The position numbers and the translations under genes are program-made. A DNA stretch of 64,000 nt from Closterium sp. NIES-65 (lineage: Eukaryota; Streptophyta; Zygnematophyceae; Desmidiales; Closteriaceae). This document shows, piece by piece, positions 767-37,799 of this stretch. Within the stretch, counting starts at the first letter, position 1. Each line of letters begins with the position of its first letter. The DNA lies in assembly GCA_948144175.1 (NCBI GenBank), contig CANXME010001453.1, forward strand, positions 3,224,001 through 3,288,000. Direction: 5' to 3'. The notes below the pieces were generated by a model. The model searched no databases, was not told the DNA's origin, and saw nothing but the letters and a program-made list of their open reading frames with translations.

Positions 767-3700
767 ATGGCGAAGCGCAAGGAGGATCCGTTACAAGCAG
801 AGGACGCGCACGACAAGCTGGAGCTGATGCCGCTGGGCGCGGGCAACGAAGTGGGGCGGTCGTGCGTGTTCATGTCGTACAAGGGCAAGAACGTGCTGGT
901 AATCACTCCCTAGGCGCCTCATTTTTGTCGTATATGGGCAAGAACGTGCTGGTAATGGCCCTTAGGTGCAGCTGATGCCTGTAGGGGCAACCAACTGGGG
1001 CGGTCGTGCGTGTTCATGTCGTACAAGGGCAAGAACGTGCTGGTGAGGGCAAGAACGTGCTGGTGAGGGCAAGCACGTGCTGGTGAGGGCTAGCACGTGC
1101 TGGTGAGGGCTAGCACGTGCTGGTGAGGGCAAGCACGTGCTGGTGAGGGCTAGCACGTGCTGGTGAGGGCTAGCACGTGCTGGTGAGGGCAAGCACGTGC
1201 TGGTGAGGGCTAGCACGTGCTGGTGAGGGCAAGCACGTGCTGGTGAGGGCAAGCACGTGCTGGTGAGGGCAAGCACGTGCTGGTTATGGCTCTTCAGTTC
1301 GAATGTGGCATTCACCCTGCATGCTCTACTCAGGCATCGCTGGGCTGCCCGCCTTTGGTCACCTGCCTAGTTTCCATCCCCTTTCACCCCACTCAATCCC
1401 CTTCCACCGCACCCAACCCTTTCCCCACTGCCAGTTCGACTGTGGCATTCATCCCGCGTACTCTGGCATTGCCGGGCTGCCCTTCTTTGGTCACCTGCCT
1501 TCTTTCCATCCCCTTCCCCCCCACTCAATCCCCTTCCACCGCATCCAATCCCCTTCCACCGCACCCAACCCTCTTCGCACTGCCAGTTTGACTGTGGCAT
1601 TCACCCCGCCTACTCGGGCATCGCCGGGCTGCCCTTCTTTGACGAGATCGACCCCTCCTGTATTGACGTGCTGCTCGTCACGCAGTGAGTGCTGTTGACT
1701 GCCGTTGACTTGAGTTGACTCGAGTTGACTTGTTGACCTTGGTGTGCTTCTGGGCTGCCCTTCTTTGATGAGATCGACCCCTCCTGTATCGACGTGCTGC
1801 TGGTGACGCAGTGAGTGCTGCTGACTGCCGTTGACTTGAGTTGACTCATGTTGACTCACTGAGTGCTGCTGCCCTTCTTTGATGAGATCGACCCCTCCTG
1901 TGTGGACGTGCTGCTGGTGACTCAGTGAGTGTTGAATCCTTTCTGCTGCGTTGACATGAGTTGACTCGTGTTGACTCACTGAGTGCTGCTGGGCTGCCCT
2001 TCTTTGACGAGACCAACCCCTCCTGTGTTGACGTGCTGCTGGTTACGCGGTGAGTGCGGTCTTCTTGCTGTGTTTACCCTCGTTGAGTTAACTTGCAGTG
2101 AGTGCTGCTTCCTTTCTGCTGCGTTTACTTGAGTTTGCCTAACTTCGTTATGGGCGCCTCATAACGTCTTCTCCCGTTCTCTCCCGTTCCCTCCCCTCCC
2201 CTCCCCTCCCCTCCCCTCCCCTCCCCTCCCCTCCCCTCCCCTCCGCCATCAGCTTTCATCTCGACCATGCCGCGTCACTGCCTTACTTTCTCTCTAAGGT
2301 ACAACCCGCTATCTGCTTGCACGGTGTGCTGTGAGTGTGAGATGTCTCCATCTATGGATGGTCACTGCAAGCTATATTTGAGGCGCCTAAAAAATAACCT
2401 GCTTGCACGGTGTGCTATGCTTGTGGGGGGGGTGGTGTACTGGGCATGTGAGATGTCTATGGATGGTTACTGCAAGCGTGTGGAAGTCTTTTGAGGCGCC
2501 TCAAAAGGTGTACTGGGCATGTGAGATGTCGATGGATGGTTACTGCAAGCGTGTGGAAGTCTTTTGAGGCGCCTCAAAAGGTGTACTGGGCATGTGAGAT
2601 GTCGATGGATGGTTACTGCAAGCGTGTGGAAGTCTTTTGAGGCGCCTCAAAAGGTGTACTGGGCATGTGAGATGTCGATGGATGGTTACTGCAAGCGTGT
2701 GGAAGTCTTTTGAGGCGCCTCAAAAGGTGTACTGGGCATGTGAGATGTCTATGGATGGTTACTGCAAGCGTGTGGAAGTCTTTTGAGGCGCCTCAAAAGG
2801 TGTACTGGGCATGTGAGATGTCTATGGATGGTTACTGCAAGCGTGTGGAAGTCTTTTGAGGCGCCTCAAAAGGTGTACTGGGCATGTGAGATGTCGATGG
2901 ATGGTTACTGCAAGCGTGTGGAAGTCTTTTGAGGCGCCTCAAAAGGTGTTCTGGGCATGTGAGATGTCTATGGATGGTTACTGCAAGCGTGTGGAAGTCT
3001 TTTGAGGCGCCTCAAAAGGTGTACTGAGCATGTGAGATGTCTATGGATGGTTACTGCAAGCGTGTGGAAGTCTTTTGAGGCGCCTCAAAAGGTGTACTGG
3101 GCATGTGAGATGTCTATGGATGGTTACTGCAAGCGTGTGGAAGTCTTGGAAGGAGATGAATGCTAATTCATCAGGGCTTCTGTTGGTGATGCTTGCTTTT
3201 TTCCCTTGTTCTGATGTTGCTTCTTCCGCAGCGGCCCCTTCTGCTCCTACTCCCCGCAGCAGACCAATGTCGTACCAATGGCTTCATGCCAGGACGAGTC
3301 TTAATGATTCATGCATGCAACAGAAGTTTATTTTTGAGACGTCTCAAAAATCAACTTTCTACACGTGCCTTCCGCTCCTACTCTCCGCAGACCAATGTCG
3401 TACCAATGTCGCTCATGCTAGGACGAGTCTTAATGATTCATGCCAGGACGAGTCTTAATGATTCATGCATGCAACAGAAGTCGTGTACTGGCGGGCTGCT
3501 GCTGCTGCTGCTGCGGTGCGAGTATCAAGATTCATGTTGGGAGTTGCAGCAAAAACGATCTCAACAGAAGTCGTGTACTGGCGGGCTGCTGCTGCTGCGA
3601 TGCGAGTCGGCACAGCAGCAGTCTAATTTTGAGGCGCCTCAATATTAGAAGTCGTGTACTGGCTGCTGTGCGAGTCAACACAGCAAGGTGGCTGTGGATG

Positions 3701-6700
3701 ATGCTCCCTTGTCTGCCTCCCTTCCCCTACCCTCCCACTGCCCTCCCACCCCCACCTCACTCCACCGCACCCCACCTCCTCCCTCTATCGCCTGCTGCTG
3801 TCTGATTTCGTGCGAGTCAGCAAGGTGGCTGTGGATGATGCTTGCTTTCTTTCCTCTGTTCTGTTGTCTCTTTTTCCCTGGCCCCTTTCCCTCCAACCCT
3901 CACAGACCAACTTCCAGGGGCGGGTGTTCAAGACCCATGCCACGAAAGCCGTCTATCGCCTGCTGCTCTCTGATTTCGTGCGAGTCAGCAAGGTGGCTGT
4001 TGAAGATGCTCCCTTGTCTGCCTCCCTTCCCCTACCCTCCCACTGCCCCTCCACCCCTACCTTGCTCCACCGCACCCCACCTCCTCCCTCTTCAGACCAA
4101 CTTCCAGGGACGCGTGTTCATGACCCATGCCACCAAGGCCGTCTATCGCCTGCTGCTCTCTGACTTCGTGCGAGTCAGCAAGGTGGCTGTGGATGATGCC
4201 CTGTTCACGGAGCAAGACATTCAACAGAGCATGGAGAAGATTGAGGTGAGTGCGAGCGGTTGAGGGAGTGAGTGAGTGGGTGAGTAAGGGAGAAAGTGAA
4301 AGGGGGGGAAAGTCAGCAAGGTGGCTGTGGATGATGCCCTGTTCACGGAGCAAGATATCCAGCAGAGCATGGAGAAGATCGAGGTGGGTGCGAGTGAGGG
4401 AGTGAGTGAGGGAGTGAGTGAGTGAGGGAGTGAGTGGGTGAGTGAGGGAGTGAGTGGGTGAGTGAGTCAACAAATGAGTGAACGAGTGAGTGAAGTAGGG
4501 AGTCAGCAAGGCGGCTGTGGGTGATGCGCTGTTCACGGAGGAAGATGTCTAGCAGAGCATGGAGACGACTTTTGAGGCGCCTCAAAAAGCTTCTGAGAAT
4601 TCTAAAAAAACTGAGGCGCCTCAAAAGGCTTTTGAGAATTCTAAAAAAACTGAGGCGCCTCAAAAGGCTTTTGAGAATTCTAAAAAAACTGAGGCGCCTC
4701 AAAAGGCTTTTGAGAATTCTAAAAAAACTGAGGCGCCTCAAAAGGCGGCTGTGGGTGATGCGCTGTTCACGGAGGAAGATGTCCAGCAGAGCATGGAGAA
4801 GATCGAGGCGAGGGGGAGTGAGGGAGAGTGAGTGAGGGAGTGAATGAGGGAGTGAGTGAGGGAGCGTACGAGGTGAGAAAGGTGGCTGTGGATGATGCGC
4901 TGTTTACGCAAGAAGATGTCCAGGAGCATGGAGAAGATCGAGGTGAGGGGGAGTGAGGGAGAGTGAGTGAGGGAGTGAGTGAGGGAGTGAGTGAAGGGGG
5001 AGTCAGCAAGGTGGCTGTGGAAGATGCTCTGGCATGCTGAATGGCATCAAGTTCTGGTGCTACACGGCGGCAGCTATGTTAAAGAGGTGACTTTTGAGTC
5101 GACTGAAAAGTAACTTCTGGTGCTACACGGCGGCAGCTATGTTAAAGAGGTGACTTTTGAGTCGACTGAAAAGTAACTTCTGGTGCTACACGGCAGCAGC
5201 TATGTTAAAGAGGTGACTTTTGAGTCGACTGAAAAGTAACTTCTGGTGCTACACGGCAGCAGCTATGTTAAAGAGGTGACTTTTGAGTCGACTGATAAGT
5301 AACTTCTGGTGCTACACGGCAGCAGCTATGTGCCACATGCTTTCTCTCACTCCCCCCTTTGTCGCGCCCAAAAATCGACTTATCACCGGCAGCTATACAG
5401 CGGCACAGCGGCAGCTATGTGCGGCAGCTATGTGCGGCAGCTATGTGCGGCAGCTTTGTGCGGCAGCTTTGTGCCACATGCTTTCTCTCACTCCCCGATT
5501 CATACCCCACCCCACCAGGTGATCGATTTCCACCAGATTCACGAGGTGAACGGCTTCAAGCTCTGGTGCTACACGGTGGGGCACGTGCTGGGAGCTCCTT
5601 TCATTGGTCTTCCATTCAGTGCTAACCCCTCCGTCCGTGGCCTTTCCTTTCCTTACCCTCATGTCAGGTGATTGATTTCCACCAGATTCACGAGGTTAAC
5701 GGCATCAGGTTCTGGTGCTACACGGCGGGGCACCTGCTGGGAGCTGGAGCGAGTTGGCAGCACCTTTCACTCAGTGCTTCCACCTCCTTCCTCTCTCTGT
5801 CTTTCCTTGCCCTCATTTCAGGTGATAGATTTCCACCAGATTCACGAGGTGAATGGTATCAAGTTCTGGTGCTACACGACAGGCAGGGCACGTGCTGGGA
5901 TCGGCCGTGCTGCTCCTTTTTCCATTCCACATGCTTTGTCTTTTTTCCCTCCCTTGCTGCTCCTTTATTCCTCCCAGGTCATCGACTTTCACCAGATTCA
6001 CGAGGTGAATGGTATCAAGTTCTGGTGCTACACGGCGGGGCACGTGATGGGAGCAACGTGGCTTGAGTGCTAACCCCCGTCTTCCTCCGTCTTTATGTTC
6101 CTCGCTCCCAGGTCATTGATTTCCACCAGATTCACGAGGTGAACGGTATCAAGTTCTGGTGCTACACGGCGGGGCACGTGCTGGGAGCAGCCATGTTCGC
6201 GGTGGATATAGCGGGAATCAGGGTGCTCTATACGGGGGATTACTCGCGCGAGGAGGACCGCCACTTGAGAGCAGCCGAAGTGCCGCCCTTCTCTCCGGAC
6301 CTCTGCGTCATTGAGTCAACGTTTGGTGTACAGGTGCGTCTTGGTGGATTTTGACTTCCTATACTGCTACTTGAGACAGCTAGGGTCAGCAGGGGAAGGA
6401 GGAGGACCGCCACTTGAGAGCAGCCGAAGTGCCGCCCTTCTCTCCTGACCTCTGCGTGATCGAGTCAACGTTCGGCGTGCAGGTAAGATTTGGTGATGGT
6501 TCCTTCTCAGAGGGTGCTCTATACGGGGGATTACTCGCGCGATGAGGACCGCCACTTGCGGGCAGCCGAAGTGCCGCCCTTCTCGCCGGACCTCTGCGTC
6601 ATCGAGTCAACCTTCGGCGTGCAGGTGAAATCAGGCTGTTCTTACACGGCTCATGCAGAAAGGCGGAGGACCGGCACTTGCGGGCAACTGAGCCAAAGTG

Positions 6701-9700
6701 CCGCCGTTCGGTGATCTCCCAACTTCTTCATCATTGAGTCCACCTTCGGCATGCAGGTGAGATCAGGTTCTCAAGGCACGTTGGTCATACGTCCAGTGTT
6801 GATACGGAGAGGAGGACGAGGAGGACCGGCACTTGGGGCGGCAGAAGTGCCGCCCTTCTCTCTGGACCTCTGCATCATTGAGTCCACCTTTGGTGTGCAG
6901 ATGAGTCTTGGTGGCTCTTTCTTTGTATGCAGGTGAGATCGGGGAAGTGAGAGAGCACCGTTTTCTCGATTGTGTCGTCGGCACGGTGCTGAACGGAAGG
7001 AGGGTGCTCATCATCCCAGCGTTCGTCCTGGGCTGGGCAGTGAATCTCCCTAGCTCGCCCCTGGCTGGGCTGGGCCGAGCATAGAAGCTACTGCTCCTGT
7101 GCACTGGGCAGTGAATCTCCCGCTGCTGCTCTTTCTGAACGACCACTCCCCTCCTTGTTTCACTACCACCGTCCCTCCCACCCACCCACCTCCTCTCCCT
7201 CCACCTCACTTCACCCAACCACAGAATCACGAGCCACGGGAGGTGAGAGAACGCCGCTTTCTAGACTTTGTCGTGGGAACGGTGCTGAACGGAGGGAGGG
7301 TGCTCATCCCAGCATTCGCCCTGGGCCGGGCGCACTGAAGCTGCTGCTGATTCTCTACCCGTCGCCCGCTCTTCTCTCTCCCAGTCGCAGATCCACGAGC
7401 CACGGGAAGTGAGAGAACGCCGCTTCCTCGACTTCGAGTTGACTTTCGAGTTGAATTTTGAGTCGACTCAAAAGTGAGAGAACGTCGCTTCCTCACCTTC
7501 GTTGTCAGAACAGTGCTGAACGGAGGGAGGGTGCTCATTCCCGCGTTCGCCCTCGGCCGGGCCCAGGAGCTGCTGCTGATTCTGGACGAGCCGAGCACTC
7601 ACCTCCTTGTTTCACCGGCTCTCTTCCCCTCTTTCTCTCCTTCTCTCTTTCTCTCCTTCTCTCTTTCTCTCCTTCTCTCTTCTCTCTTTCTCTCCTTCTC
7701 TCTTTCTCTCCTTCTCTCTTTCTCTCCTTCTCTCTTTCTCTCCTTCTCTCTTTCTCTCCTTCTCTCTTTCTCTCTCCTTCTCTCTTTCTCTCCTCTCTTT
7801 CTCTCCTTCTCTCTTTCTCTCCTTCTCTCTTTCTCTCCTTCTCCTTCTCTCTTTCTCTCCTTCTCTCTTTCTCTCCTTCTCTCTTTCTCTCCTTCTCTCT
7901 TTCTCTCCTTCTCTCTTTCTCTCCTTCTCTCTTTCTCTCCTTCTCTCTTTCTCTCCTTCTCTCTTTCTCTCCTTCTCTCTTTCTCTCCTTCTCTCTTTCT
8001 CTCCTTCTCTCTTTCTCTCCTTCTCTCTTTCTCTCCTTCTCTCTTCTCTTTCTCTCCTTCTCTCTTTCTCTCCTTCTCTCTTTCTCTCCTTCTCTCTTTC
8101 TCTCCTTCTCTCTTTCTCTCCTTCTCTCTTTCTCTCCTTCTCTCTTTCTCTCCTTCTCTCTTTCTCTCCTTCTCTCTTTCTCTCCTTCTCTCTTTCTCTC
8201 CTTCTCTCTTTCTCTCCTCTCTTTCTCTCCTTCTCTCTTTCTCTCCTCTCTCTTTCTCTCCTTCTCTCTTTCTCTCCTTCTCTCTTTCTCTCCTTCTCTC
8301 TTTCTCTCCTTCTCTCTTTCTCTCCTTCTCTCTTTCTCTCCTTCTCTCTTTCTCTCCTTCTCTCTTTCTCTCCTTCTCTCTTTCTCTCCTTCTCTCTTTC
8401 TCTCCTTCTCTCTTTCTCTCCTCTCTTTCTCTCCTTCTCTCTTTCTCTCCTCCTCTCTTTCTCTCCTTCTCTCTTTCTCTCCTTCTCTCTTTCTCTCCTT
8501 CTCTCTTTCTCTCCTCTCTTTCTCTCCTTCTCTCTTTCTCTCCTTCTCTCTTTCTCTCCTTCTCTCTTTCTCTCCTTCTCTCTTTCTCTCCTTCTCTCTT
8601 TCTCTCCTTCTCTCTTTCTCTCCTTCTCTCTTTCTCTCCTTCTCTCTTTCTCTCCTTCTCTCTTTCTCTCCTTCTCTCTTTCTCTCCTTCTCTCTTTCTC
8701 TCCTTCTCTCTTTCTCTCCTTCTCTCTTTCTCTCCTTCTCTCTTTCTCTCCTTCTCTCTTTCTCTCCTTCTCTCTTTCTCTCCTTCTCTCTTTCTCTCCT
8801 TCTCTCTTCTCTCCTTCTCTCTTTCTCTCCTTCTCTCTTTCTCTCCTTCTCTCTTTCTCTCCTTCTCTCTTTCTCTCCTTCTCTTCTCTCTTTCTCTCCT
8901 TCTCTCTTTCTCTCCTTCTCTCTTTCTCTCCTTCTCTCTTTCTCTCCTTCTCTCTTTCTCTCCTTCTCTCTTTCTCTCCTTCTCTCTTTCTCTCCTTCTC
9001 TCTTTCTCTCCTTCTCTCTTTCTCTCCTTCTCTCTTTCTCTCCTTCTCTCTTTCTCTCCTTCTCTCTTTCTCTCCTTCTCTCTTTCTCTCCTTCTCTCTT
9101 TCTCTCCTTCTCTCTTTCTCTCCTTCTCTCTTTCTCTCCTTCTCTCTTTCTCTCCTTCTCTCTTTCTCTCCTTCTCTCTTTCTCTCCTTCTCTCTTTCTC
9201 TCCTTCTCTCTTTCTCTCCTTCTCTCTTTCTCTCCTTCTCTCTTTCTCTCCTTCTCTCTTTCTCTCCTTCTCTCTTTCTCTCCTTCTCTCTTTCTCTCCT
9301 TCTCTCTTCTCTCTTTCTCTCCTTCTCTCTTTCTCTCCTTCTCTCTTTCTCTCCTTCTCTCTTTCTCTCCTTCTCTCTTTCTCTCCTCTCTTTCTCTCCT
9401 TCTCTCTTTCTCTCCTTCTCTCTTTCTCTCCTTCTCTCTTTCTCTCCTTCTCTCTTTCTCTCCTTCTCTCTTTCTCTCCTTCTCTCTTTCTCTCCTTCTC
9501 TCTTTCTCTCCTCTCTTTCTCTCCTTCTCTCTTTCTCTCCTTCTCTCTTTCTCTCCTTCTCTCTTTCTCTCCTTCTCTCTTTCTCTCCTTCTCTCTTTCT
9601 CTCCTTCTCTCTTTCTCTCCTTCTCTCTTTCTCTCCTTCTCTCTTTCTCTCCTTCTCTCTTTCTCTCCTTCTCTCTTTCTCTCCTTCTCTCTTTCTCTCC

Positions 9701-13730: not shown

Positions 13731-13982
13731 TTCCTTGGTTGGAGTAGTGGGATGAGGTGTGTGGAGGGGGAGAGGGAGAGACTCGAGGAAGTTGTTAACT
13801 CTGTACAAATTTATCAACGGTTTCAAAAAAAATGGAACGATGATCTCCAACAGTGCAGATGATTGCCTGCAATGCTAGCCTCGGTAATAAGTACTGAGCA
13901 TGAGGCCGTGAAACCGAAATACCGTAGTTGATTTTGTGACCATGTTGAATTGATTAGTATTAGTTTGCATTTCCGGTAGCGT

Positions 13983-14880: not shown

Positions 14881-14905
14881 GTGTCCACTCACTTGACTAC
14901 ACTCA

Positions 14906-17900
14906 CTACTCTCCCAGCACCGCCTTCCATGCAGCCATCACTCCATCCACAGCCTCTAGGAAGTTCTCATCTACCTTGCCTTGCGCATCGATGGCATGTG
15001 CAAAGTCCACGAGCCTCAGAGAGGGAGGGTGGGCAGCACCCCTTCCCGCCTCCTTCCCTTCTTCCCTTGCCTCTGCCCCTTCGTGTTCAGATGTGTTGGC
15101 CTCGTAAATCAACAGGATAGAGGCTGAGAAGAAGTGGAAGGAGGTTTGCTGGGCGAACCTGTGAGGAAGCAATGGTGGGAATGAGTGGAAGGTGTGAGAG
15201 TGGGAGGGGGAGCATGGGTGCTGCTGTTGTTATCCTTGCAACTGAGGAGGATAGAAGAGGAGAACCCATAGAAGGAGGCAAAAAAGTTCGTCAAGCGGAG
15301 GTTGCTGGACAAAAAGGTTCAGTACAAAAACGCTCACCAGTCCCTCAGTGTCTGCAGCTGCGCCAACAGCCCTCCCTCTCCACTCAAAACGCCTCTCATT
15401 CTCTCCTTCGCCTCCGCACTGAGAGAACCAGCAGCAGCAGCAAGAGCAGTAGTAGCATTGCCAGCACCACCAGCAGCAGCGGCAATAGCATCGACGGCAG
15501 GGGCGTCAGCGGTGGGAGTCAGGGAGAAGAAGAGGCGGAAGACAGCTGGCATCTGCTGATTGGTCAGGTTCTGGCACCACTTGCGGTCAGCCCTCCACAT
15601 GGCGCCAGTGCTGCTGTCTTGTACCTGCATGCCCGCCACCCTGTAGCCCAGCGTTCCACTCGTGGTGGTGGCGTCTTTGACCCTGTCAACGCACAGGCAG
15701 GGGGAGAGAGGAACTGGATTAAGAATCTGAGACTTTTTTCCAGCCCTAAGCACCCCTCCAGATGGCGCCAGTGCTGCTGTCGTGCACCTGCATGCCCGCT
15801 ACTCTATAGCCCAGCGTGCCCGAGGTGGTGGTGGTTGCGTCTTTGGCCCTGTACGTGCATGCAGCACACACCGGGAGAAACAAAGGAAGGATAGATCGAA
15901 AAGAGCGCAAGATGGAAGAGGGGCAGGAGGACAGCTGGGTCAGATGACACAACCACATGGCGCCAGTGCTGCTGCCATGCCCCTGCATACCCGCTACTCT
16001 TGACTGGAACCTGGAGAACCTGAAGTGGCGGTGGCTTCTTTGACCCTGTCAACGCACGAGCCGGGAGGGTTTGAAAGGGCAGTGGGGTTGGTCTTAGACT
16101 GACAGCACCCTTCCACATGGCGCAAGTGCAACTGTCGTGCGTGCATCTGCATGACCGCTACTCTTGACTGGAACCTGGAGAACCTGAAGTGGCGGTGGCT
16201 TCTTTGACCCTGTCAACGCACGAGCTGGGAGAAGCAAAGGAGGGGGGGACTGTAAAGGCAGGAGGGTTTCGCTTAGACAGAGAGCAGCAGCCCTCCATAT
16301 GGCGTCAGTGCTGCTATCGTGCACCTGCATGCCCGCTAACCTCTACCCCAGCGTTTCCCCACGCTTCTGTTACCCTGCTGCTATCATACACCTCTTTGTC
16401 CACACCCTGCTGCGGTGGTGACGTCTTTGCCTTTGCGCGTGTGTACTTTTGAGTCGACTCAATAGGCGACTTTTGAGTCGACTCAGAAGCGAGGGGGATT
16501 TGCCTTTGAGGGAGATTCACCAGCAGCTGCTATCATCCACCTCTTTGCCCACACCCTGCTGCGGTGGTGCCGTCTTTGCCTTTGTGTGTGTGTACATAGC
16601 TAGGGAATGGGGCAGGAAAAGGAAGGGAGAAAGCGGCTTTGAATAATGTGCTTGACTGGAATTCGGAAGAGGTTTGAAAGAGGCTCATGAGCATTGTGTG
16701 AAAAGAGTACTTTTGAGACGTCTCAAAAGTACTATTTTTACACGTGAATTTGGAAGAGGCTTGAAAGAGGCTCACAAGCATTTGTCGATGTATTTCTGCG
16801 GAGCCCCTTCATACCATGTCTTGCGCCCCATCTGCTTCCCAGAGTGTGGAGGGGGGAGTGGGGAGGGGAGGTAGGAGGTAAGAGGAGGGAGGGGGGAATT
16901 GGGGAGGGGACACACAGATTAAGACAGGGTAAGCTAGCTGGCACATGCTGTAGGTTAGAAGGCAACTTCTAAGGCGGCTCAAAAGTAAACTGGCTGGCAC
17001 ATGCCGTGCATGTACTTTTCAAGAGCCCATGCACATGCACCCTTAATACCATGTCTCGCACCCTGTCTGCTTGCAGGAAAGGTGGAACGGAACGGAATCA
17101 CCTTGATAATTTGCACAGTGCCCATGCATGACTCATTATCATGTGTTCTCACATGCCCCTCTCACCTTGATATCCATGATGCATGGCTTGGTGTAATTCC
17201 TTGTAAGGTCCTCCATTACAAGAAACTGTGATGTATGAATGAGCAAGTAATACACCATCATACAGCCATCGCATCGCAAATCCAGCACACACTATCATGC
17301 ATGCACCCAGCCTTGAAAGCATGCACACACATATACCACACAGTTACACATTCACACATGCCCACGCTTACACACATCCACACACGTGGGTGCATGCCAG
17401 GTCAACATACTCGGAAGCCCATGGTTGCACAAACAGTTGGTCACAATGTTGGGAGTTTTGAGGCACCACAATGAGATATTGACGTTCAAAATGGATTGCC
17501 GTCAACGATGACGTCAATGTTGACGTATTGGAGATCGAGGAATGCAGGGTGAGTAGGGCAAGTGGGAACGTGGAGGAGAGGTGAAGATGAAAGGAGGAGA
17601 GGCGAGGAGAGGAGGAGAGGGGGGGAGGGGGAGACGAGGAGAAAGGGAGAGGAGTGGAGGAAAGGAGGAGAGGAAGGGAGGAGGCGAGGAGGATAGAGAA
17701 GTGTAGAACGAATTGGGGAGGGAGGGAAGGGTGAGAGGAGTACAGAGGAGTTGAGAGGAGTCAAGGAAGAAACGTATCCAGAAAACGAATCAGGGATTGA
17801 TGGATTGGAGAAAACTAAGAAATCAGACAACAAAGGTAGAACTTGACATGCTTGGTCCGTTGTGACAGTGTAAAGGTCTAATGGTACTGTTATCTCAAGA

Positions 17901-25600: not shown

Positions 25601-28600
25601 CAGGGGGGACAGGAGTGGGTTCAGCTGCGGGGCCGGTAGTCGGGGTATATTCTCCAGTGCCGGCCAAGGGGCATAAGGACTCGGTGTATTCTGTGGCGAT
25701 GAACAGTGCCGGGAGTGTGGTGGTTTCGGGCGGCACAGAGAAGGTGGTTCGCGTGTGGGACCCTCGCACAGGGACCAAGCAAATGAAACTAAAGGGACAT
25801 ACGGAGAATATTAGAGCTCTTGCTATCGACCCCACTGGCAGGTGAGTGGCAGATAACAAGAGAGGGAAAGGAGAGGGCATGAGTGGGACCCTCGCACGGG
25901 GACCAAGCAGATGAAGCTGAAAGGGCACACGGAGAACATTAGAGCTCTGGCTGTTGATTGATTCCACATGCAGGTGAGTGGCAGATAAGAGGGAACGGAG
26001 AGGGCATGCGTGGGACTCTCGCACGGGGACCAAGCAGATGAAACTAAAGGGACATACGGAGAATATTAGAGCTCTGGCTGTTGATTCTACGGGCAGGTGA
26101 GCGACTGTTGACCCTATGGGGGGAAAAGATCAGGAGGATGGTGGTGGTGTGCGCGTGTGGGACCCTCGCACAGGGACCAAGCAGATGAAGCTAAAGGGGC
26201 ACGCGGAGAATATCAGGGCACTTGCTATCGAGCCCTCAGGCAGGTGAGTGGCTGTTGATTGATCATGCTGGGGTGTGTAAGGGAAACGAGAGAGGGTATG
26301 AAGGGGAGAAGGTGGTCCGCGTGTGGGACCCTCGCACAGGGACCAAGCAGATGACGCTGAAAGGGCACACGGAGCACATCAGGGCTGTTGCTGTTGATCC
26401 CACTGGCAGGTGAGTGGCTTTGTGGTAAGGTGAGGCAAGGCGTGTTTTGAGACGTCTCAAAACACTTCTTCAAACACGTGGTAAGGTGAGGCAAGGCGTG
26501 TTTTGAGACGTCTCAAAACACTTCTTCAAACACGTGGTAAGGTGAGGCAAGGCGTGTTTTGAGACGTCTCAAAACACTTCTTCAAACACGTGGTAAGGTG
26601 AGGCAAGGCGTGTTTTGAGACGTCTCAAAACACTTCTTCAAACACGTGGTAAGGTGAGGCAAGGCGTGTTTTGAGACGTCTCAAAACACTTCTTCAAACA
26701 CGTGGTAAGGTGAGGCAAGGCGTGTTTTGAGACGTCTCAAAACACTTCTTCAAACACGTGGTAAGGTGAGGCAAGGCGTGTTTTGAGACGTCTCAAAACA
26801 CTTCTTCAAACACGTGGTAAGGTGAGGCAAGGCGTGTTTTGAGACGTCTCAAAACACTTCTTCAAACACGTGGTAAGGTGAGGCAAGGCGTGAGAGGAGG
26901 TGGTGGTGGGCATCCTGTGTGGGATGGGATGGGACCCATGGGTGCCAAGAAGATGAAGCTGAAAGGGCACACGGAGAATATTAGAGCACTGGCTGTTGAT
27001 CCGACTGGCAGGTAATTGGCTCTATGCTGTGGTAGGTCGTGTGTGAGTTTATGTTGGGCGATGGAATGGACCCCATGCTGACTTTCGAGTCCACTCAGAA
27101 GTCACTTTGTGTTGTGTGTTTGTTGGGGGGGCGTGGAGGTGCGCAGCGTGTGTGTGTGTGCGTGCACGAAACCATTCACCCAAGTAGGTACAGTCTCTCT
27201 TCCAACTCAACGCATCTTCTCCCTCCCTCCCCCTCCTCTCACACCCCATTGCAGGTTCTGCTTGTCCGGCTTCTCCGACTCAATCATCTGATGGGTCAGC
27301 ATCAAATAGCTACGATTGCTCTCGATTGAAACCGTCTGTTTTCTCTCCCTCCCTCCCCCTCCTCTCACACCCCATTGCAGTTTCTGTGTGTCCGGCTCCC
27401 CCGACTCAATCATCTGATGGGTCAGCATCAAATAGCTACGATCGCTCCCGGTTCAAACCGTCTGTTTTCTCTCCCTCCCTCCCCATCCCTCTTCTCACAC
27501 ACGCCATTGCAGGTTCTGTTTGTCCGGCTCCTCCGACTCAATTATCCGGTGAGCTCTTTCAAAACGCCTAAACCTTTGAGACGTCTCAAAACCTGTCTCG
27601 GACTCAAATCATCTGGTGCACACTAGAAGCTTCTAAGCCCGTTTCTTTATCTGGAGTGTCAAACAGTAGAGACAATGGCTCCTTTTGCACGGATTTAGTT
27701 AGTCAATCATCTGAGAAGTCACCGGCGCCGCCGTGCCACTCGCACAGAAGTGACTTTTGAGTCGGCTCTAAAGTCACCTTGTTAAACAGTAGAGATAATT
27801 CATCTGGAAAGTCACTGTGCCACTCGCACAGAAGTACCCCCTGTTCGGTGTGTCTCTGTGTGTGTTTCCCCTAAACTCGACTTCCCTCTTGACTCTTGGC
27901 TTTCCCAGCCTGTGGGACCAGGGGCAGCAGCGCTGTGTGTGTGCACTCCAACGCCGTCCATACAGACTTGACTCGCTGTGGGCTGTGCACCTGCTCACTG
28001 CCTCACCCTGCTCCTGCTTCCCTGTGTTTTGAGACGTCTCAAAACACCTAGAGCAGCAGCGCTGTGTGTGTGCACTCCAACGCCGTCCATACAGACTCGA
28101 CTCGGTGGGGGCTGTGCACCTGCTCACTGCCTCACCCTGCTCCTTCTCCCTGTGTGCTTCGTTCTCCTTGGTGCAGGCTGTCTGTGCCGCTGTGGGACCT
28201 AGGGCAGCAGCACTGCGTGCACTCATACACGGTGCACTGTGCCCTGTGCACAGGGTGTTTCAGCCAACTATGCCCCTGCTTTCTTTTCTCTGCGTGAATT
28301 CTCCCAGGTTATGAGGCCTGGGCCAGCAGCGCTGTGTCACTCATACGCAGTGCATACAGACTCGGTGTCGGCTGTGCGGTGCACTCATGTGCGTTTTTTT
28401 TCGTGCTTCTGTTTGTTTCTCCTTGATTTCACACCCCCTTCCCTTCACAGCCTGTGGGACCTGGGCCAGCAGCGCTGTGTGCACTCGTACGCGGTGCACA
28501 CAGACTCAGTGTGGGCTGTGCGGTGTGCACTCTGACTCATGTGTGCGAGTGTTCTCTCCCTCTCTCCTTTTTTCTCCTGGACACAGCCTGTGGGACCTGG

Positions 28601-31600
28601 GCCAGCAGCGCTGTGTGCACTCGTACGCGGTGCACACAGACTCAGTGTGGGCTGTGGCAGCCAATGAGGAGTTCACACGTGTCTACAGCGGGGGCAGAGA
28701 TGCATGTGTGAGTGCCGTGTGTGTGTGGGCGAGTGTTTGTGTGTGGGGGGGGGCGCGAGTGTGTGTGTGTGTGTGTGTGTGTCAAAGGAGTGGGCGACGA
28801 GTGGGCCAAAGGGGGGCGCGAGTGTTTGTGTGGGGGGGGGGGGGAGGGGCGACAAGTGGGCCAAAGGAAGAAGGTCCGCGTGTGTGTTTGTGTCTGTATA
28901 TGTGTGTGGGTCGGTGATTGTTTGCGTGGTGTGAGTGGGTGTGTGAGTGGGTGTGTGAATGTGTGTGTGTTCGATGGGTCTCGTCTCCTTGCTCTTTGCT
29001 TCCTCACCTTCTCTCTTGCCGCTCTTTTCTTGCTCACCCCAGTATTCGCACGTCTATGCCACCGATCTGATTGAACAAGTGTTTTGAGACGTCTCAAAAC
29101 ACTTCTTGCTCACCCCAGTATTCGCACGTCTACGCCACCGATCTGGCCACACGGGAAAGCATCCTATTGGCCAGGGAGGATCGCCCCTCATTCTGTTCTG
29201 ATGGGTATCTGAACTCCCTATGTCTCCTGTTTCCCCCCTTTCATTCCTCACCCTCCCAGGTCTACGCCACCGATCTGGCCACGCGGGAAAGCATCCTATT
29301 GGCCAAGGAAGATCGCTCCTCATTCCGTTTGTTCTGATGGGTATCTGAACTCCCTGTGCTTTCTGCTCGCCCCCCTTTCCATGCTCACCATCCCAGGTCT
29401 ATGTAACTGAGGTCGTTTTTGAGGCGCCTCAAAAACGACCTTTCCATGCTCACCCTCCCAGGTCTATGTAACTGATCTCGCCACGCGGGAAAGTATTTTA
29501 TCGGCCAAGGAGGGTCACCCCTCATCCTTTTCTGATGGGTCTCAACTCAAAGTCCCTTGGCTTCCTGTTTTCCCCCTTCCATTAAACATCGTCTCAGGTC
29601 TACGTCACCGATCTCGCCACGCGGGAAAGCATCCTATTGGCCAAGGAGGATCGCCCCGTGCTCCACCTGGCGTTACAGCCTGGCGGGGAGAGAGGGGGAA
29701 AGGGGAGAGGGGGAAGGGAGGACAGAAGAGAAGGGGAGAGGAGAGGAGGAGGAGGAGGAGGAGGAGGAGTGATAGAGAGACGGCTGGATTGTGACAGGAT
29801 GTGGGTTAGCACTTCTGCCTCGTCTGTCCGGTGTTGGCCTGCTGACTCTGCTGCTTTGACAGGCGGGACCGGGGACGCATGGGTAGGGGAGGACGGGGAG
29901 AAGGCAGCAAGGAGGGTGGCGGGTGGGGTGGAGGAGCAAGTGACTGGAGCAGCAGCAGCGCAAGCAGACTGCGGAGGAGATGAGGCAAGAAGAGGGGCGG
30001 GAGCAGGAGAGGAGGAGGGGGGCGTGTCACCGAATGGTCCGGTGTTCTGTGCGAGTCCTGACCTCTCTGCCAGCACATTCATCGCCAGCAGCCTTGGGGT
30101 GTCCCGCGCCCGAGCCAGCGTGGAAAGCTCTTTCTCTCTGGTGAGTGAAGTGCACTCCAATCTCCCTCCCCTCCACCCTCCACTGGGTCACCGAATGGAC
30201 CGATGTTCTGTGCGAGTCCTGACCTCTCCGCCAGCACATTCGTCGCCAGCAGCCTTGGGATGTCTCGTGCTCGAGCTAGCGTGGAGAGCTCTTTCTCTCT
30301 GGTGGGTGGGGCGCATTCAACTCTTCTCTTGCTTGCAAAGGCATGTCACCGGATGGGTCTTTCGTCTGTGCGAGTGCTTTTGAGAAGTCTCAAAATTACC
30401 ATCAACGCATTCAACTCTCCTCTTGCTTGCAAAGGCATGTCACCGGATGGGTCTTTCGTCTGTGCGAGTGCTGACCTCTCCGCTCGAGCTAGTGTGGAAG
30501 GCTCTTTCACACTGTTAACTGAAGAAGATTCACCTCAGAAACTCCCTCCTCTGTCGGGTGGAATGCTCTCCTGCTCTGTTGATTCAAATGCGCACTCTCC
30601 TGCTTGCTTCCGCTCTCCTGCTTGCTTTTGCTCCCCTGCTTGCATCTGCCCTTCTTCCTTCTTTTACCCATGTTCTCCACTCCCCTTCTCCCCTGGGATG
30701 CCATCATCCCCTGTGTGCGCTCATCCCCTGTGTGCGCTCATCCCCTGTCTCCTTTCTCTTTCCTCTTTCCTCTTTCCTCTTTTGCCTCACTCCCCACTCT
30801 CCTCTCCCCTCTCCAATTTCTTCTCTTCCCCCCGCTTTTCCAGGTTCCTCTATTCGCTCATCCCATTGCCACCATCTGTTGCACGCACCACACCCATCAC
30901 ATGCCATGCCCGTCTAAAGACAGACTGACTGTCTTGCTTTTCTCCCCTCTCCCCTTCTGCTCTCCCCCTCTCCTACTTGTCCAGGTTCCCCTATTCCCCC
31001 ATCCGATCGCCGCCATCCTTGGCACCGCACCCATCACACGCCATGCCATACTGAACGACAGGCGGCACGTGCTCACGCGGGTGAGAATTGTGTGTGGGTG
31101 TTTGGAACTTCCGTGCGCTTTTGTGTTGTGCATGTGTGCGTGCGCGTGTGGGTCTGAGTGTTTACTGGTGTTGACACAACCAGCATCCATCACACGCCAT
31201 GCAATTCTGAACGACAGACGGCACGTGCCCACTCGGGTAAGGATTGGGGGTGGTTGGATGTGTGTTGTGCGCCTGTGGGGGTGGTTGGATGTGTGTTGTG
31301 CGCCTGTGGGGGTGGTTGGATGTGTGTTGTGTGCCTGTGGGGGTGGTTGGATGTGTGTTGTGTGCCTGTGGGGGTGGTTGGATGTGTGTTGTGTGCCTGT
31401 GGGGGTGGTTGGATGTGTGTTGTGTGCCTGTGGGGGTGGTTGGATGTGTGTTGTGCGCCTGTGGGGGTGGTTGGATGTGTGTTGTGTGCCTGTGGGGGTG
31501 GTTGGATGTGTGTTGTGTGCCTGTGGGGGTGGTTGGATGTGTGTTGTGTGCCTGTGGGGGTGGTTGGATGTGTGTTGTGCGCCTGTGGGGGTGGTTGGAT

Positions 31601-35131: not shown

Positions 35132-35188
<57 letters not shown>

Positions 35189-37799
35189 ACATCAATCCCA
35201 GCAGCAACAGAAGCAGCAGAAGCACAAGGGAGGGCAGTGGGGCCAGCAGGAGAAGGAGCAGGAGCGGGAGGAGGAGTAAGATCAGGAGCAGGAGGAGCAG
35301 TAGCAGCATCTACGTCAGAAGAGGAGGGAGAAGAGGACGTGTTATCCGGCCTACTCCCCTCCTTCGAGTTCCCCAGCCAGTTCCCGCCCTCTATAATCAC
35401 AGAGGGCCCTCAGTTTGGCCCGTGGCGGCGGCGGGTTGTGACTCTAGCAGCGGACGGGGCGGGGTGGGAGGAAGCGAGGCTGCTGCTGCCTGGCTGGTGT
35501 GCTGACTGCGTGTGGAACGACCGACTGCCCCAGCGGGACCCTAGCAAGTAAGAGCCTGAAATTCCCACTTGATACAACAAAACCAGTCATCAGACTTTGC
35601 CTCAGGTGGGTAGGAAGAAGTGAGGCTGCGCTGCTGCTCCTGGGGTGGTGTGCTGATTGCGTGTGGAACGACCGACTGCTCCAGAGGGACCCCAGCTTCC
35701 CACTCAACAACCGATGAGACTCATAGTTATGGTCACAGAGGGTCCTCAGTCGGGCCTGTGGCGGCTTTTGCGTCGACTCAGTCAAAAGTCACCTCATTTT
35801 GAGTCGACTCAGTCAAAAGTCACCTCATTCTGAGTCGACTCAGTCAAAATTCACCTCATTCTAAGTCGACTCTAAATTCAACAACCGATGAGACTCATAT
35901 GTATAGTCACAGAGGGTCCTCGGTTGGGCCTGTGGCGGTGCAGGGTTGTGACTTGTGAGGCGCCTCAAAATCATCACAGAGAACCCTCAGTTCGGGCCAT
36001 GGCGGTGCGAAGTTGTGTGGCGTGGCGTGGCGTGGCGGCGCAACGACTAGTTTTGAAGCATATGTATAAAGTTTCGACCTGGATCCGCAGGTGACTCGTC
36101 CTACTCCAACAGGTAACTTGTCCTAATGGCAGAGCTTAGGCTAGTAGGGATAGTAGGTAAGAAATCGTTTATTCAAACCTGAGCGTACGCGCGTTTCGGC
36201 CGGTGGCCTTCATCAGCGCTCTCAAAACGAAGTTGTGTGGTGTGGCGTGGCGTGGCGTGGCGTGGCGTGGCGTGGCGGCGCAACGACATGCTATTCTGGT
36301 CTGGCTCGTTACACTCGAACCAGTAGACCGAAGTTGTGTGACCCTTACACAACACCTCGCCTTCCCTCCTTCCCTTTCACCTATCGTCCTGCCCATCTCC
36401 CACTCCCCCGCTTGCCACGCCCATCCCCAACCCGAAACCCACAGATGCATTTCTACCTGCAGCCCTTGATGGATCGCAACTGCCCAGCCCTTTGAAGCTC
36501 ACCTCCTTGCCCTCCCTTTTTGCCCCCAACCCCCCTTTTACTCCTCCCCTCCCGCCCCATAGCTGCAGCTTCTGCTTGCAGCCGTTGGATGGCTCACAGC
36601 TAGGAGACTAGCCAAAAATTGCGAAGCAAGCGAAGGAGGTTCGAAGAACTTTAAAGCTCACCTCCCTTTCCTCCCATCGTGCCCCCCAACCCCCAACCCA
36701 CCAACCCCCCCTCTCTCCCCCACAGGTGCAGCTTCTACCTGCAACCCTTCGATGGCTCGCAGCTGCGGCTATTTCAAAGGCCACCTTCCTTCCCCGCCTC
36801 TATTCTTCCCCAAAACCCACTCTTCCTTTCCGTATGTGCTCCTATACCCCACCTCTCTCCCCCCTCCAACCCACAGGTGCAGCTTCTACCTGCAACCCCT
36901 GGATGGCTCACAGCTGCGGCCTCTGACACAGAACAAGCTGAGCGCTCCCAAGATTCTCAAAATCCTCAAGGTATGCTGGATAGACATTGGTGGGTGGTGG
37001 GCAGTGGAAAGGGAGGGCCCAAGCCCGAGATGGGGGAAGGGTATGACCCAGAACAAGCTGAGCGCTCCCAAGATTCTCAAAATCCTCAAGGTAAGGTGGA
37101 TGCTGGATGGGAGGCAGGGGGGAAGAGAAGGGCGTTATGGTGCGAGAAAGTGAGAAGGAGGGCGATGGCATGACGCAGAACAGGCTGAGTGCAGGGGTGG
37201 GTTGTGGACAGGGAAAGGGCGTGACATGGAAGGGCAAGAAAAAAAGAAAGAGGAAAAAAAAATCATCATCTTCTTTCCTGATGTCTCTGTTGCAGGCGAT
37301 GAGCTACGTGCAGGAGAAGCTTGAATCACCGCTTTGCAATCTGAATATTGATTACAAATGTTTACAAATCCGCCAGTTCCTCCTCTCATGTGTGCGTGCA
37401 GGTGATGAGCTATGTGCGGGAGAAGCTGGGATTGGATGACTTGCAAGAGGAAGAGGAGGAGAGCGGAGGGGGGATGAAGGGGAGAGCAGGTGGGCCAGTA
37501 GGACCCCTGGCCCCTCCTGTGGTGGTTGAGATTTTCTGCAATAATCAGGTGAGCCTCAGAATGGGATATCTAATCAGGTGAGCTTGTTTGCTTGATATCT
37601 GTAAAAATCAACTAACATCCAGGCTAATGCTGTGTTAATGTCCAGCGCATGGTCAATAATATGTATTGTTTTCTGTGTCTTTCTCCCTCCATGGCAGCTT
37701 CTCAAGCCGGAGATGAGCTTGGCCACGGTTCGCACATACATTTGGAAGAAGTCTGAAGACCTTGCCCTTTTCTATCGCCTTGCCGCTTCAACTCTGTAG
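22639..37799 (+). CDS. WDR48: WDR48/UAF1 homologue, plant LRS1-like WD40 protein (15 exons)
   Basis: The WD40 scaffold WDR48/UAF1 activates deubiquitinases of the USP1/USP12/USP46 group; the plant form is the closer match. Exons are 22639-22758, 23465-23869, 24490-24579, 25327-25841, 27513-27548, 28587-28707, 29598-30140, 30985-31080, 32160-32225, 32711-32749, 33221-33355, 34892-35547, 36877-36970, 37402-37548 and 37698-37799. All are GT-AG with agreeing phases: 3165 nt, 1054 aa. Landmarks are [101 protein letters not shown] and [12 protein letters not shown]. The C-terminal part has [32 protein letters not shown] and the end [20 protein letters not shown], the C-terminal ubiquitin-like region. 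It is longer than relatives because of Gly/Ala-rich (exon 4), Glu/Gly-rich (exon 7) and poly-Ala/Ser (exon 12) inserts. Most exons have partial tandem copies in the flanking introns. Confidence 0.93.
22800..22925 (+). repeat. Second copy of WDR48 first exon and 5' UTR
   Basis: This copy repeats the 5' UTR (ACCGCACTG.ACC.CGGCAATGCATCGG), part of exon 1 and the donor. An ATG at 22855 opens 63 nt ending at 22917 before GTGAGTTG, in the same phase as exon 1. It could serve as an alternative first exon giving a 21-residue N-terminus ([20 protein letters not shown]...). Confidence 0.75.
22930..23464. other. WDR48 intron 1, pyrimidine-rich, no exon copies seen downstream of 22925
   Basis: The sequence is C- and T-rich with no recognisable gene or repeat. 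It leads into the polypyrimidine tract and acceptor at 23464. Confidence 0.5.
23936..24740 (+). repeat. 3' copies of WDR48 exon 2 and copies of exon 3
   Basis: Copies of the [28 protein letters not shown] segment with donor lie at 23943-24041 and 24098-24180 (the latter runs into exon 3-like sequence). Exon 3 5' pieces ([12 protein letters not shown]) occur at about 24182-24215 and 24350-24395 before the intact exon. 3' pieces ([14 protein letters not shown] plus donor) follow at about 24630-24673 and 24728-24770. Confidence 0.82.
24830..25326 (+). repeat. 5' copies of WDR48 exon 4 in pyrimidine-rich intron 3
   Basis: After a CTCCTGCGCCCCCCT-type microsatellite (24900-25000), partial copies of acceptor plus the [21 protein letters not shown] segment occur at about 25015-25070 and 25165-25230. 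The intact exon begins at 25327. Confidence 0.75.
25880..27015 (+). repeat. 3' copies of WDR48 exon 4 and 56-bp palindrome array
   Basis: Copies of the [29 protein letters not shown] segment with donor lie at about 25886-25977, 26008-26099, 26153-26245, 26310-26411 and 26930-27013. From 26422 to 26890 there are eight 56-bp periods. Each holds a perfect 24-bp palindrome (core TTTTGAGACGTCTCAAAA, first at 26445-26462, last at 26837-26854) between copies of GTGGTAAGGTGAGGCAAGGC. Confidence 0.92.
27075..27810 (+). repeat. Copies of WDR48 exon 5 and palindromes
   Basis: Upstream acceptor-bearing copies of the 12-residue exon lie at 27253-27293 and 27381-27421, each diverged or stop-bearing. A partial copy lies at 27596-27620, after the intact one (27513-27548). 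Palindrome relatives lie at about 27083-27100, 27574-27592 and 27755-27772. The last is inside an almost perfect 30-bp inverted repeat between direct copies of the GTGCCACTCGCACAGAAGT segment. Confidence 0.8.
27908..28520 (+). repeat. 5' copies of WDR48 exon 6
   Basis: Copies of the [22 protein letters not shown] segment, several with an acceptor, begin at about 27910, 28053, 28190, 28310 and 28452; the intact exon is 28587-28707. The first two are separated by a GTGTTTTGAGACGTCTCAAA palindrome at 28024-28047. Confidence 0.85.
28720..28975 (+). repeat. TG-rich microsatellite in WDR48 intron 6
   Basis: GTGTGTG and GTGGGG runs start at the exon 6 donor. Two larger copies of GAGTGGGC..C(A/G)AAGGGGGGCGCGAGTGT-like sequence are included. 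Confidence 0.7.
29030..29560 (+). repeat. 5' copies of WDR48 exon 7 with palindromes
   Basis: Copies of acceptor plus [15 protein letters not shown] begin at about 29042, 29118, 29260, 29397 and 29461; the intact exon begins at 29598. A 28-bp perfect palindrome (GACGTC centre, 29077-29104) separates copies 1 and 2. A 30-bp perfect palindrome (GGCGCC centre, 29411-29440) separates copies 4 and 5, whose direct-repeat arms are about 37 bp long. Confidence 0.92.
30180..30540 (+). repeat. 3' copies of WDR48 exon 7
   Basis: Copies of the [28 protein letters not shown] segment lie at about 30190-30300, 30340-30375 and 30435-30520. The last two are the ends of 68-bp direct repeats, separated by a palindrome-like spacer (30378-30395, centre GAAGTC). 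Confidence 0.85.
30840..32030 (+). repeat. Copies of WDR48 exon 8 and a 31-bp minisatellite
   Basis: A degraded upstream acceptor copy lies at 30844-30930. Downstream 3' copies ([15 protein letters not shown] plus donor) lie at about 31184-31236, 31692-31756, 31846-31900 and 31982-32020. Between the first two, about 31247-31655 is an array of about 13 units of 31 bp (TGGTTGGATGTGTGTTG core) that begins just after a donor. Confidence 0.88.
32226..32710 (+). repeat. Exon 9 copy, 36-bp duplication and a palindrome (WDR48 intron 9)
   Basis: 32314-32363 repeats the 3' part of exon 9 ([13 protein letters not shown]) with donor. About 32438-32513 is a 36-bp direct tandem duplication (GTACAGGTCCATATATGGCC...). 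A palindrome relative (TTTTAGGCGTCTCAAAA) lies at about 32588-32604. Confidence 0.75.
32770..33220 (+). repeat. CTCA microsatellite and 5' copies of WDR48 exon 11
   Basis: 32778-32880 is CTCACTCA-rich. Copies of the segment WFSVDLRFG with acceptor lie at about 32968-33025 and 33090-33140, before the intact exon at 33221. Confidence 0.8.
33430..34440 (+). repeat. 3' copies of WDR48 exon 11 and a 19-bp minisatellite
   Basis: Copies of the [20 protein letters not shown] segment and donor lie at about 33440-33530, 33608-33635 (short), 33705-33793, 33855-33939 and 34207-34296; a remnant lies at 34400-34430. Between copies, 33958-34190 is about 12 units of the 19-bp GTGCAAGGTGCAGGTACAT repeat, starting just after a donor. 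Confidence 0.9.
34475..34891 (+). repeat. 5' copies of WDR48 exon 12
   Basis: Acceptor plus LNLGQQ...GLLWPWL copies begin at about 34480, 34622 and 34762; the intact exon begins at 34892. Confidence 0.82.
35121..35185 (+). repeat. GCA trinucleotide repeat inside WDR48 exon 12
   Basis: A GCAGCA run codes for poly-Ala in the WDR48 frame and lies in a non-conserved linker. It may vary in length. Confidence 0.85.
35590..36010 (+). repeat. 3' copies of WDR48 exon 12 with palindrome arrays
   Basis: A 3' copy ([15 protein letters not shown]) lies at about 35605-35695. Copies of the region coding ITEGPQ.GPWRRRV occur at about 35728-35765, 35905-35950 and 35972-36015. The first two are separated by a GTCGAC palindrome cluster (35765-35880) and the next two by a GGCGCC palindrome (about 35952-35970). 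Confidence 0.85.
36008..36290. repeat. GTGGC arrays flanking an inserted segment
   Basis: Direct repeats of CGAAGTTGTGTGG, (CGTGG)n and CGGCGCAACGAC lie at about 36008-36047 and 36229-36286, with different CGTGG copy numbers. Between them is a segment of about 180 bp unlike its surroundings. It starts with GTTTTGA and ends with TCTCAAAAC, and carries the hammerhead motif. Confidence 0.75.
36181..36221 (-). ncRNA. Type I hammerhead self-cleaving ribozyme candidate
   Basis: On the minus strand, reading from 36221 to 36181: stem I arms GAGCG and CGCUC (5 perfect pairs) enclose the conserved core CUGAUGA, then one extra A. Stem II is GGCC/GGCC with loop ACC, followed by GAAA. Stem III is very short: A-U, C-G and G-C pairs closed by a 2-nt loop, within ACGCGCGU. 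The cleavage triplet is GUA, an allowed NUH. Every core nucleotide is present. Short self-complementary stem III is known from hammerheads of Penelope-like elements, which cleave as dimers. The extra A after CUGAUGA is the one departure from the simplest consensus. It lies antisense in WDR48 intron 12. Confidence 0.75.
36440..36780 (+). repeat. 5' copies of WDR48 exon 13
   Basis: Acceptor plus the [11 protein letters not shown] segment, in variable preservation, occurs at about 36444-36495, 36562-36605 and 36727-36775 before the intact exon (36877-36970). Confidence 0.82.
37035..37335 (+). repeat. 3' copies of WDR48 exon 13 and 5' copy of exon 14
   Basis: [15 protein letters not shown] with donor is repeated at 37046-37090; a short TQNRLSA piece lies at about 37173-37190. 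Acceptor plus AMSYVQEKL at 37295-37325 copies the start of exon 14 (37402). Confidence 0.85.

Follow-up and report, generated by a model that had tools for sequence, protein, structure and literature searches.

Why should one short palindrome recur exactly between two direct copies of whatever sequence happens to surround it? The question is raised by a 64-kb stretch of nuclear DNA from the alga Closterium sp. NIES-65 (contig C1450, positions 3224001-3288000; hereafter the window), in which a family of palindromes with an 18-bp core lies in and around host genes. The window is part of an 874-Mb nuclear assembly in 2,400 contigs, and all the evidence given here comes from this one assembly. We found that the palindromes belong to a dispersed family. 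Two sites at which a sister copy lacks them point to tiny mobile inserts, which duplicate 13 to ~100 bases of their target. The explanation we favour, with a confidence slightly above even, is that these are very short, non-coding and non-autonomous palindromic inserts which are end-joined into widely staggered breaks, producing long target duplications of variable length.

The palindromes form a dispersed nuclear family

The original prediction, made from the letters of the window, had described an 18-bp palindrome with three centres (GGCGCC, GACGTC and GTCGAC). The family is real: the window holds 48 matches with three or fewer mismatches, as compared with a shuffled mean of 0.15, and all 24 of its perfect 18-bp palindromes are members. 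The description required widening in two respects: there is a fourth centre, GAATTC, and a longer palindrome surrounds the 18-mer, which is only its core. Genome-wide, TTTTGAGNCGNCTCAAAA, which has an NCGN centre, occurs in 24,964 exact copies (reversed control, 0), and exact cores with any centre number 30,327 (control, 4). Copies sit in contigs of up to Mb size and in intron-rich genes; the family is nuclear and dispersed, with tens of thousands of copies. A hand tally of 50 sites, restricted to the first contigs, gave the centres TCGA (22), ACGT (12), GCGC (10) and AATT (2), the other four sites carrying a non-palindromic variant. A viral origin was considered and rejected, since the arms are short and flanking copies are lacking in all 11 exact matches found in IMG/VR, as expected of chance.

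Variant centres (TTGA, TCAA and ACAT) were seen among the C6 and C9 sites. They look like decay of the central CpG by change of C to T, as might happen if the cores were methylated.

Direct copies of local sequence flank the palindromes

We denote a direct copy of local target sequence as D and the palindromic insert as P. For a pooled analysis, 60 non-array places were hand-picked from pattern listings before their flanks were seen. Four of these (L072, L081, L082 and L084), in which the script recognised no core, and two near-duplicates were dropped; the remaining 54 probably still include at least two sister pairs. With the words of the element masked, direct copies enclosed the palindrome at 42 of the 54 loci. 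The control, in which the left flank of one locus was paired with the right flank of another, gave 45 of 2,862. The proposal that the palindromes mark junctions of duplications therefore holds genome-wide. Taken separately and unmasked, the three sets of 20 that made up the 60 places gave 15, 13 and 17 loci between direct copies, with controls of 2/380, 0/380 and 37/380, respectively. In the third set, flanks containing element sequence raised the control, and sister copies account for at least four of the 20 loci.

The length of D was 13-87 bp in the pooled set (median 44), 13-104 bp among the 30 first-set loci that passed 85% identity, and up to 136 bp in older, diverged copies. Identities between the two D copies ranged from ~66% to 100%, suggesting that copies of many ages are present. 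A comparison with random positions, using the window and a first group of loci, showed abutting copies at 38 of 45 single-palindrome loci and at 707 of 4,000 random positions (590 of 3,000 in an earlier run), the high background reflecting the abundance of tandem repeats in this DNA. A complexity filter reduced these figures to 18/45 and 151/3,000, and was set aside as too harsh because it also discarded perfect copies, for example that at L018 4206. No nick-site motif was seen by eye at the D borders of 30 loci. A check for Introner-type splicing, made from the DNA sequence alone, gave no enrichment of AGGT in D of the kind that splice-site rescue would leave (3/30 against 4.2 at random).

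Within the window, direct copies abut the palindromes at 7456, 16711, 28027, 29082, 29417, 30378, 35765-35880 and 35952, all of which the original prediction had named as clear cases. Copies are also present at 27755, named with them, in weaker form. Among the arrays it listed, those at 2435, 5052 and 26422 have abutting copies; at 4567 the aligner gave no flanking copies, and those given here come from reading the sequence. The loci are as follows.

2434..3147: array of 73-bp units, each consisting of ~55 bp of local sequence and a GGCGCC palindrome of 18-20 bp; 9 full palindromes
3237..3443: D 3237-3314; P ~3315-3367, of the GACGTC class, with a right arm complete as far as CACGTG; D 3368-3443
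3566..3685: D; P at 3627 (GGCGCC, arms TCTAAT/ATTAGA); D; an old locus, with D copies 71% identical
4509..4799: D ~4509-4565; mixed GGCGCC/GAATTC array 4567-4742; D ~4743-4799; D copies read by eye
5052..5331: array of 63-bp units with GTCGAC palindromes
7407..7501: D 7407-7436; P (GTCGAC) 7437-7471; D 7472-7501; 90% identity (site 7456)
16377..16595: D of 70 bp; GTCGAC palindromes at 16447 and 16471 with filler; D of 70 bp
16659..16782: D of 37 bp; 50-bp palindromic insert (GACGTC) with 10 of 12 variable arm positions paired; D of 37 bp; 89% identity (site 16711)
26422..26892: eight 56-bp units and a last D; each unit is D GTGGTAAGGTGAGGCAAGGCGTG followed by a GACGTC insert whose right arm is complete
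27733..27835: P at 27755, with a decayed copy on either side; 73% identity over 45 bp, including an exact piece of 19 bp
27924..28155: D of 104 bp; P (GACGTC) 28028-28052; D of 103 bp; 95% identity (site 28027)
29027..29145: D of 43 bp; P 29070-29102, ATTGAACAAGTG subfamily, with an inherited arm mismatch; D of 43 bp; 98% identity (site 29082)
29374..29475: D of 37 bp; P (GGCGCC) with perfect arms AGGTCGT/ACGACCT, its last bases overlapping D; D of 37 bp; 97% identity (site 29417)
30312..30472: D of 67 bp; P 30379-30405, centre GAAGTC; D of 67 bp; 99% identity (site 30378)
35704..35938: D of 61 bp; GTCGAC array 35765-35877 with a 31-bp period; D of 61 bp; 56/61 bases match
35907..36017: D of 44 bp; P (GGCGCC) at 35953; D of 44 bp; 78% identity, 35/45 bases match

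Weak cases were seen at 27574 (18/22) and 16967 (19/22), and the aligner found no abutting copies at 32587. Two decayed GGCGCC palindromes lie outside the strict pattern, one at 873-956 between direct copies (31 bp at 94%) and the other, recognised by eye, at ~2150-2170.

Two sites are empty in a sister contig

The sister copy is contig C697, which has 49 mismatches over 9,157 aligned bases. At window position 30378 it lacks exactly 94 bp, namely 67 bp of D and 27 bp of P, and keeps one D. At 26422 all eight palindromes are missing from it, and D is present once. A palindrome cluster near window position ~5660 is present in C697 and absent from the window, the array at 2434..3147 has one unit more in the sister contig, and that at 4567-4742 is 78 bp shorter there. 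By hand count over the compared stretches, 17 of 20 palindrome loci or arrays are common to both contigs. Paralogous neighbouring exon units of the same gene, examined by eye, continue across the position of 30378 with no insert, and gain is for this reason the more probable direction of the change.

These sites bear on the mechanisms offered by the original prediction, in which a nuclease or integrase cuts at a pre-existing palindrome, or fold-back synthesis creates one during break repair, and duplication of the flanks follows. Palindromes are prone to breakage, which speaks for an origin of this kind. However, the palindrome and the second copy are absent together at both empty sites, and since the palindrome itself appears to arrive, both mechanisms become less likely. 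The arms, described below, weigh on the fold-back version in particular.

The two contigs also bear on the suspicion that the pattern is an artefact of the assembly or library, as palindromic sequences can be adapters or fold-back chimaeras. Loci common to two sister contigs, copies of many ages as judged from D identity, and the many sequence subfamilies described below all argue against this, and we give it practically no credence.

Differences between sister contigs extend to other repeats: a ~106-bp unit at L042 2071 / L043 2268 differs by 318 bp, or about three copies, between two of them. The number of intragenic units thus appears, from such sequence comparisons, to change fast.

The arms are long and variable yet complementary

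Outside the core, the arms have an ordered architecture. In the GACGTC class, CACGTG stands at offset 27 from the centre on 18 of 55 distinct arms and at any other offset on two at most, and the combination of CACGTG, 12 bases and TTTTGAGAC occurs on 610 + 678 arms genome-wide (control, 0). Among the 55 listed distinct variants of these 12 bases, position 6 is A in all 55 and position 7 is G in 51; the remaining positions vary, with C being rare. In the GTCGAC class, GTGACTTTTGAGTC occurs 3,411 + 3,772 times (control, 5), a 28-bp perfect palindrome has 1,013 copies, and CATGGTAACGAGGTGACTTTTGAGTC has 46. In 20 copies of CATGGTAACGAGGTGACTTTTGAGTC, at least four of which are sister copies, the arm extends outward as roughly GTGTCGTGTGC, with TGC in 20/20 and a single leading base at each of the next eight positions (in 11 to 18 copies). 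One arm of this class reaches ~37 bp on the side seen, and the complete palindrome would then measure ~74 bp. A fixed full length of 54 bp was considered and dropped, as GTCGAC arms run on past CCATGG.

Two compound copies were observed, L026 1453-1501 with cores 48 bp apart and a common CACGTG, and L105 ~180-230 (minus strand) with cores ~47 bp apart and a common CCATGG, each as if joined end to end. Such copies would suit another origin, in which a longer element has terminal repeats that end in CTCAAAA, the cores are the places where two such ends abut, in a circle or head to tail, and fragments around these junctions were captured. The extension of GTCGAC-class arms beyond the inner hexamer agrees with this. 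Isolated half-cores would then be expected as the outer ends of linear copies, yet they occur near background (31 in 148 kb against ~18 expected, 7 of the 31 being in arrays or partial elements), and no long element was noticed in the DNA examined. We consider this origin very improbable.

The arms differ strongly between loci yet stay complementary. Pairing was measured in 14 GACGTC elements selected for having both arms; complementarity extended over 25 pairs, with 87% of cells paired as compared with 73% when shuffled and 38-54% when slid. Cells changed on both sides numbered 51 against 17.4 in shuffled arms, and the covariation score was 0.408 against 0.133 (shuffled) and 0.073-0.125 (slid). 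A first set of nine elements gave a score of 0.407 against 0.137. Full Watson-Crick swaps account for the majority of stem changes, and a few G-U pairs occur.

An unpaired C/G arm position is common to 29082, L038, L042 and L045, which belong to one subfamily, and a 40-base piece of this subfamily recurs at 93-100% identity on many contigs. Together, the inherited mismatch and the recurring piece indicate that copies descend from masters and that arms are not redrawn at each move; the mismatch rules out perfect regeneration of the arms at every move. Asymmetric subfamilies also exist (ATTGAACAAGTG/ATTGAAGAAGTG), and conservation on tens to hundreds of unlinked copies extends to motifs distant from the core, namely CACGTG, an AG at arm positions 12-13, and CATGGTAACGAGG. 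Complementary arms are what fold-back synthesis would give. However, that process would be expected to yield perfect arms each time, which the common C/G mismatch contradicts, and the motifs conserved far from the core on unlinked copies do not suit a scar. Taken with the empty sites, we regard an origin of the palindromes as duplication scars as quite improbable.

Two full GACGTC elements fold to near-perfect hairpins (-31.8 and -40.4 kcal/mol; z -8.6 and -10.7). Such structures, with the few G-U pairs in the covarying stem, are compatible with retroposition, in which a LINE-type reverse transcriptase would copy a small hairpin RNA into nicked DNA and D would be the target-site duplication. 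Duplications of variable length, as seen here, are usual in target-primed reverse transcription. Against this, the stem changes are mostly full Watson-Crick swaps, and neither a tail nor a constant 3' end was seen. Truncation from the 5' end should moreover often end inside the core, whereas arms are trimmed on both sides and rarely into it. We judge retroposition to be unlikely.

The hairpins would also suit transposition of a single strand. At a nick, an HUH/Y1-type enzyme would attach the hairpin strand to the 5' end, while 13-100 bases would be copied from the free 3' end by strand displacement, and ligation would leave D-P-D. Bacterial REP elements, which are moved by RAYTs of the Y1 HUH type, offer a parallel. 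The arrangement would follow directly from a nick and limited displacement synthesis, and palindromic mobile elements of such a size exist in bacteria (PMC3733652, main text). The inserts, however, carry no asymmetric end tag such as GTAG, and both arms are alike in architecture, so that this route too seems doubtful.

Trimming and junctions

The arms stop at many points. Among ~100 CACGTG arms listed, one element (C62:1415207/1415234) is exact at both ends. Trimming proceeds from the outside and rarely into the core, as the near-background number of lone half-cores given above shows, and in 20 GTCGAC/GAATTC loci it affects both sides. The 40 junctions of these loci comprised 11 with microhomology of at least one base, which is about the number expected by chance, 11 that were blunt, 10 with 1-3 filler bases and 8 with more. 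As read from sequence, such junctions look like plain end joining of a shortened duplex.

A candidate mechanism and its weight

In the explanation that we favour, the whole insert would be palindromic, its arms measuring 27 bp or more for the GACGTC class and up to ~37 bp, on one side, for the GTCGAC class. The target strands would be cut 13 to ~104 bp apart, and filling in of both overhangs would double the stretch between the cuts. The outer arms would be nibbled, and the palindrome then ligated between the two D copies by end joining. The central 18 bp would seldom be nibbled, probably being held by a dimeric protein, and we infer that the insert travels as a duplex. The doubled flanks could later let some sites grow into tandem arrays.

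The formation of small tandem duplications (<100 bp) by opposite-strand nicks, fill-in and non-homologous end joining is an established process (PMC8355091, in the text available). Duplication at a staggered break fits our loci because the lengths of D are variable (13-104 bp) and the junction types are as expected. The loci resemble those of PMC8355091 in having variable D of <100 bp and end-joining junctions, with the enzyme in our case being a presumed one; unlike them, they have a recurrent palindrome at the joint, none being described in the available text of that report. The constant palindrome at the joint is what is novel with respect to staggered-break duplication. Target copies without a fixed length do not fit a DDE transposase, and we know of no transposase or transposon class that makes such a target duplication.

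Several observations weigh against this explanation. No duplication was found at 12 of the 54 pooled loci. The empty sites could have come from recombination between two D copies, and the 27-base insert of 30378 has no second exact copy in the assembly and no exact donor. No GTCGAC copy with both arms of 37 bp was seen. The choice of the 14 GACGTC elements by the presence of both arms favours pairing, and in these elements the number of pairs with change on both sides (10, against 9.5 when shuffled) was not above chance. No protein has been linked to the family, and no protein-family search was made.

A bolder claim, which we offer tentatively and would sooner expect to fail than to hold, is that the family represents a categorically new kind of mobile DNA: a coding-free, protein-held duplex with a shielded core and expendable arms, which enters through staggered breaks and end joining instead of the fixed geometry of a transposase, and is a steady source of new tandem duplications of 10-100 bp, and of arrays, within genes of an alga related to land plants. 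If this were true, an insert of ~50-75 bp would have reached ~30,000 exact cores in one nuclear genome without coding capacity. The loci would be a natural, sequence-marked record of staggered-break repair, and a source of small intragenic tandem duplications and arrays and possibly of intron growth. Insertion differences between sister contigs make both direction and rate testable.

Comparison with known systems

The original prediction had recognised in the palindromes no known transposon, long terminal repeat or satellite. This agrees with our search of the literature, which covered titles and the beginnings of abstracts and found no published description of palindromes between long direct copies. 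Miniature inverted-repeat transposable elements and other DNA transposons with terminal inverted repeats combine inverted repeats, lack of an open reading frame (ORF) and target duplication of fixed length. Our inserts have inverted repeats, no ORF and a target duplication; unlike those elements, they have no spacer between the arms, D is not of fixed length and the outer ends are mostly lost.

A paper on Closterium genome size has no 'palindrom' in its main text (PMC10407611). The mitochondrial and plastid genomes of Volvox carteri contain short palindromic repeats of 11-77 nt (average 50 nt) in many related classes, which form hairpins, fill organelle spacers and introns and are thought to be selfish, their nuclear copies being called inert (PMC2670323, main text). 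The Closterium family is likewise a short hairpin repeat of a green-lineage alga with several classes (four centres and 55 listed arm variants). Unlike the Volvox repeats, it resides in the nucleus, varies in occupancy between sister contigs and has long target copies on both sides; the main text of PMC2670323 contains neither 'target site' nor 'direct repeat'. REP elements, associated with RAYT, are palindromes of 20-40 bp in very many copies, thought to be non-autonomous, with a one-sided GTAG or CGTC tag (PMC3733652, main text). Here, in contrast, the arms are symmetric without a one-sided tag and D spans 13-104 bp; 'duplication' and 'target site' are absent from the main text of PMC3733652. 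Introner families are short dispersed inserts in genes of algae, some with target duplications, and have flanking repeats of 3-9 bp (PMC9860276, in the text available), whereas the copies described here are long and D is not enriched in AGGT. Given the likeness in form to the Volvox and REP repeats and the mismatch with miniature inverted-repeat elements, we file the family as a variant among short palindromic mobile repeats, and its own insertion mode may be categorically new.

Gene setting of the window

Intron-rich host genes, which from reading the sequence by eye we take to be a CPSF73-like gene and a WD40-repeat gene, lie in the first 36 kb of the window. Of the 24 exact cores, 12 fall within 0-8 kb, 1 within 16-24 kb and 11 within 24-32 kb, with none elsewhere, and the placing of the family in host genes by the original prediction is fair for this window. 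The stretch from 36 to 64 kb, including the copia ORFs that occupy parts of 43-61 kb, has no exact core; the genome mean is ~29 per Mb. An intronless ORF with a fasciclin domain lies at 20326-21738 on the minus strand, and has three relatives among 8,000 candidates scored, all from Closterium (68, 74 and 47% identity). At the gathering threshold, tRNA was the only known RNA family in the window.

Within the host genes, units of exon plus intron of ~100-240 bp are repeated head-to-tail two to five times, mostly without a palindrome between them, at the following positions.

1628-2059
5516-6190
6220-6770
23792-24183
25755-26258
27218-27546
33269-34300

A 2.1-kb array of a 16-base pyrimidine unit, CTCTCTTTCTCTCCTT, adjoins the CPSF73-like gene at 7619-9777.

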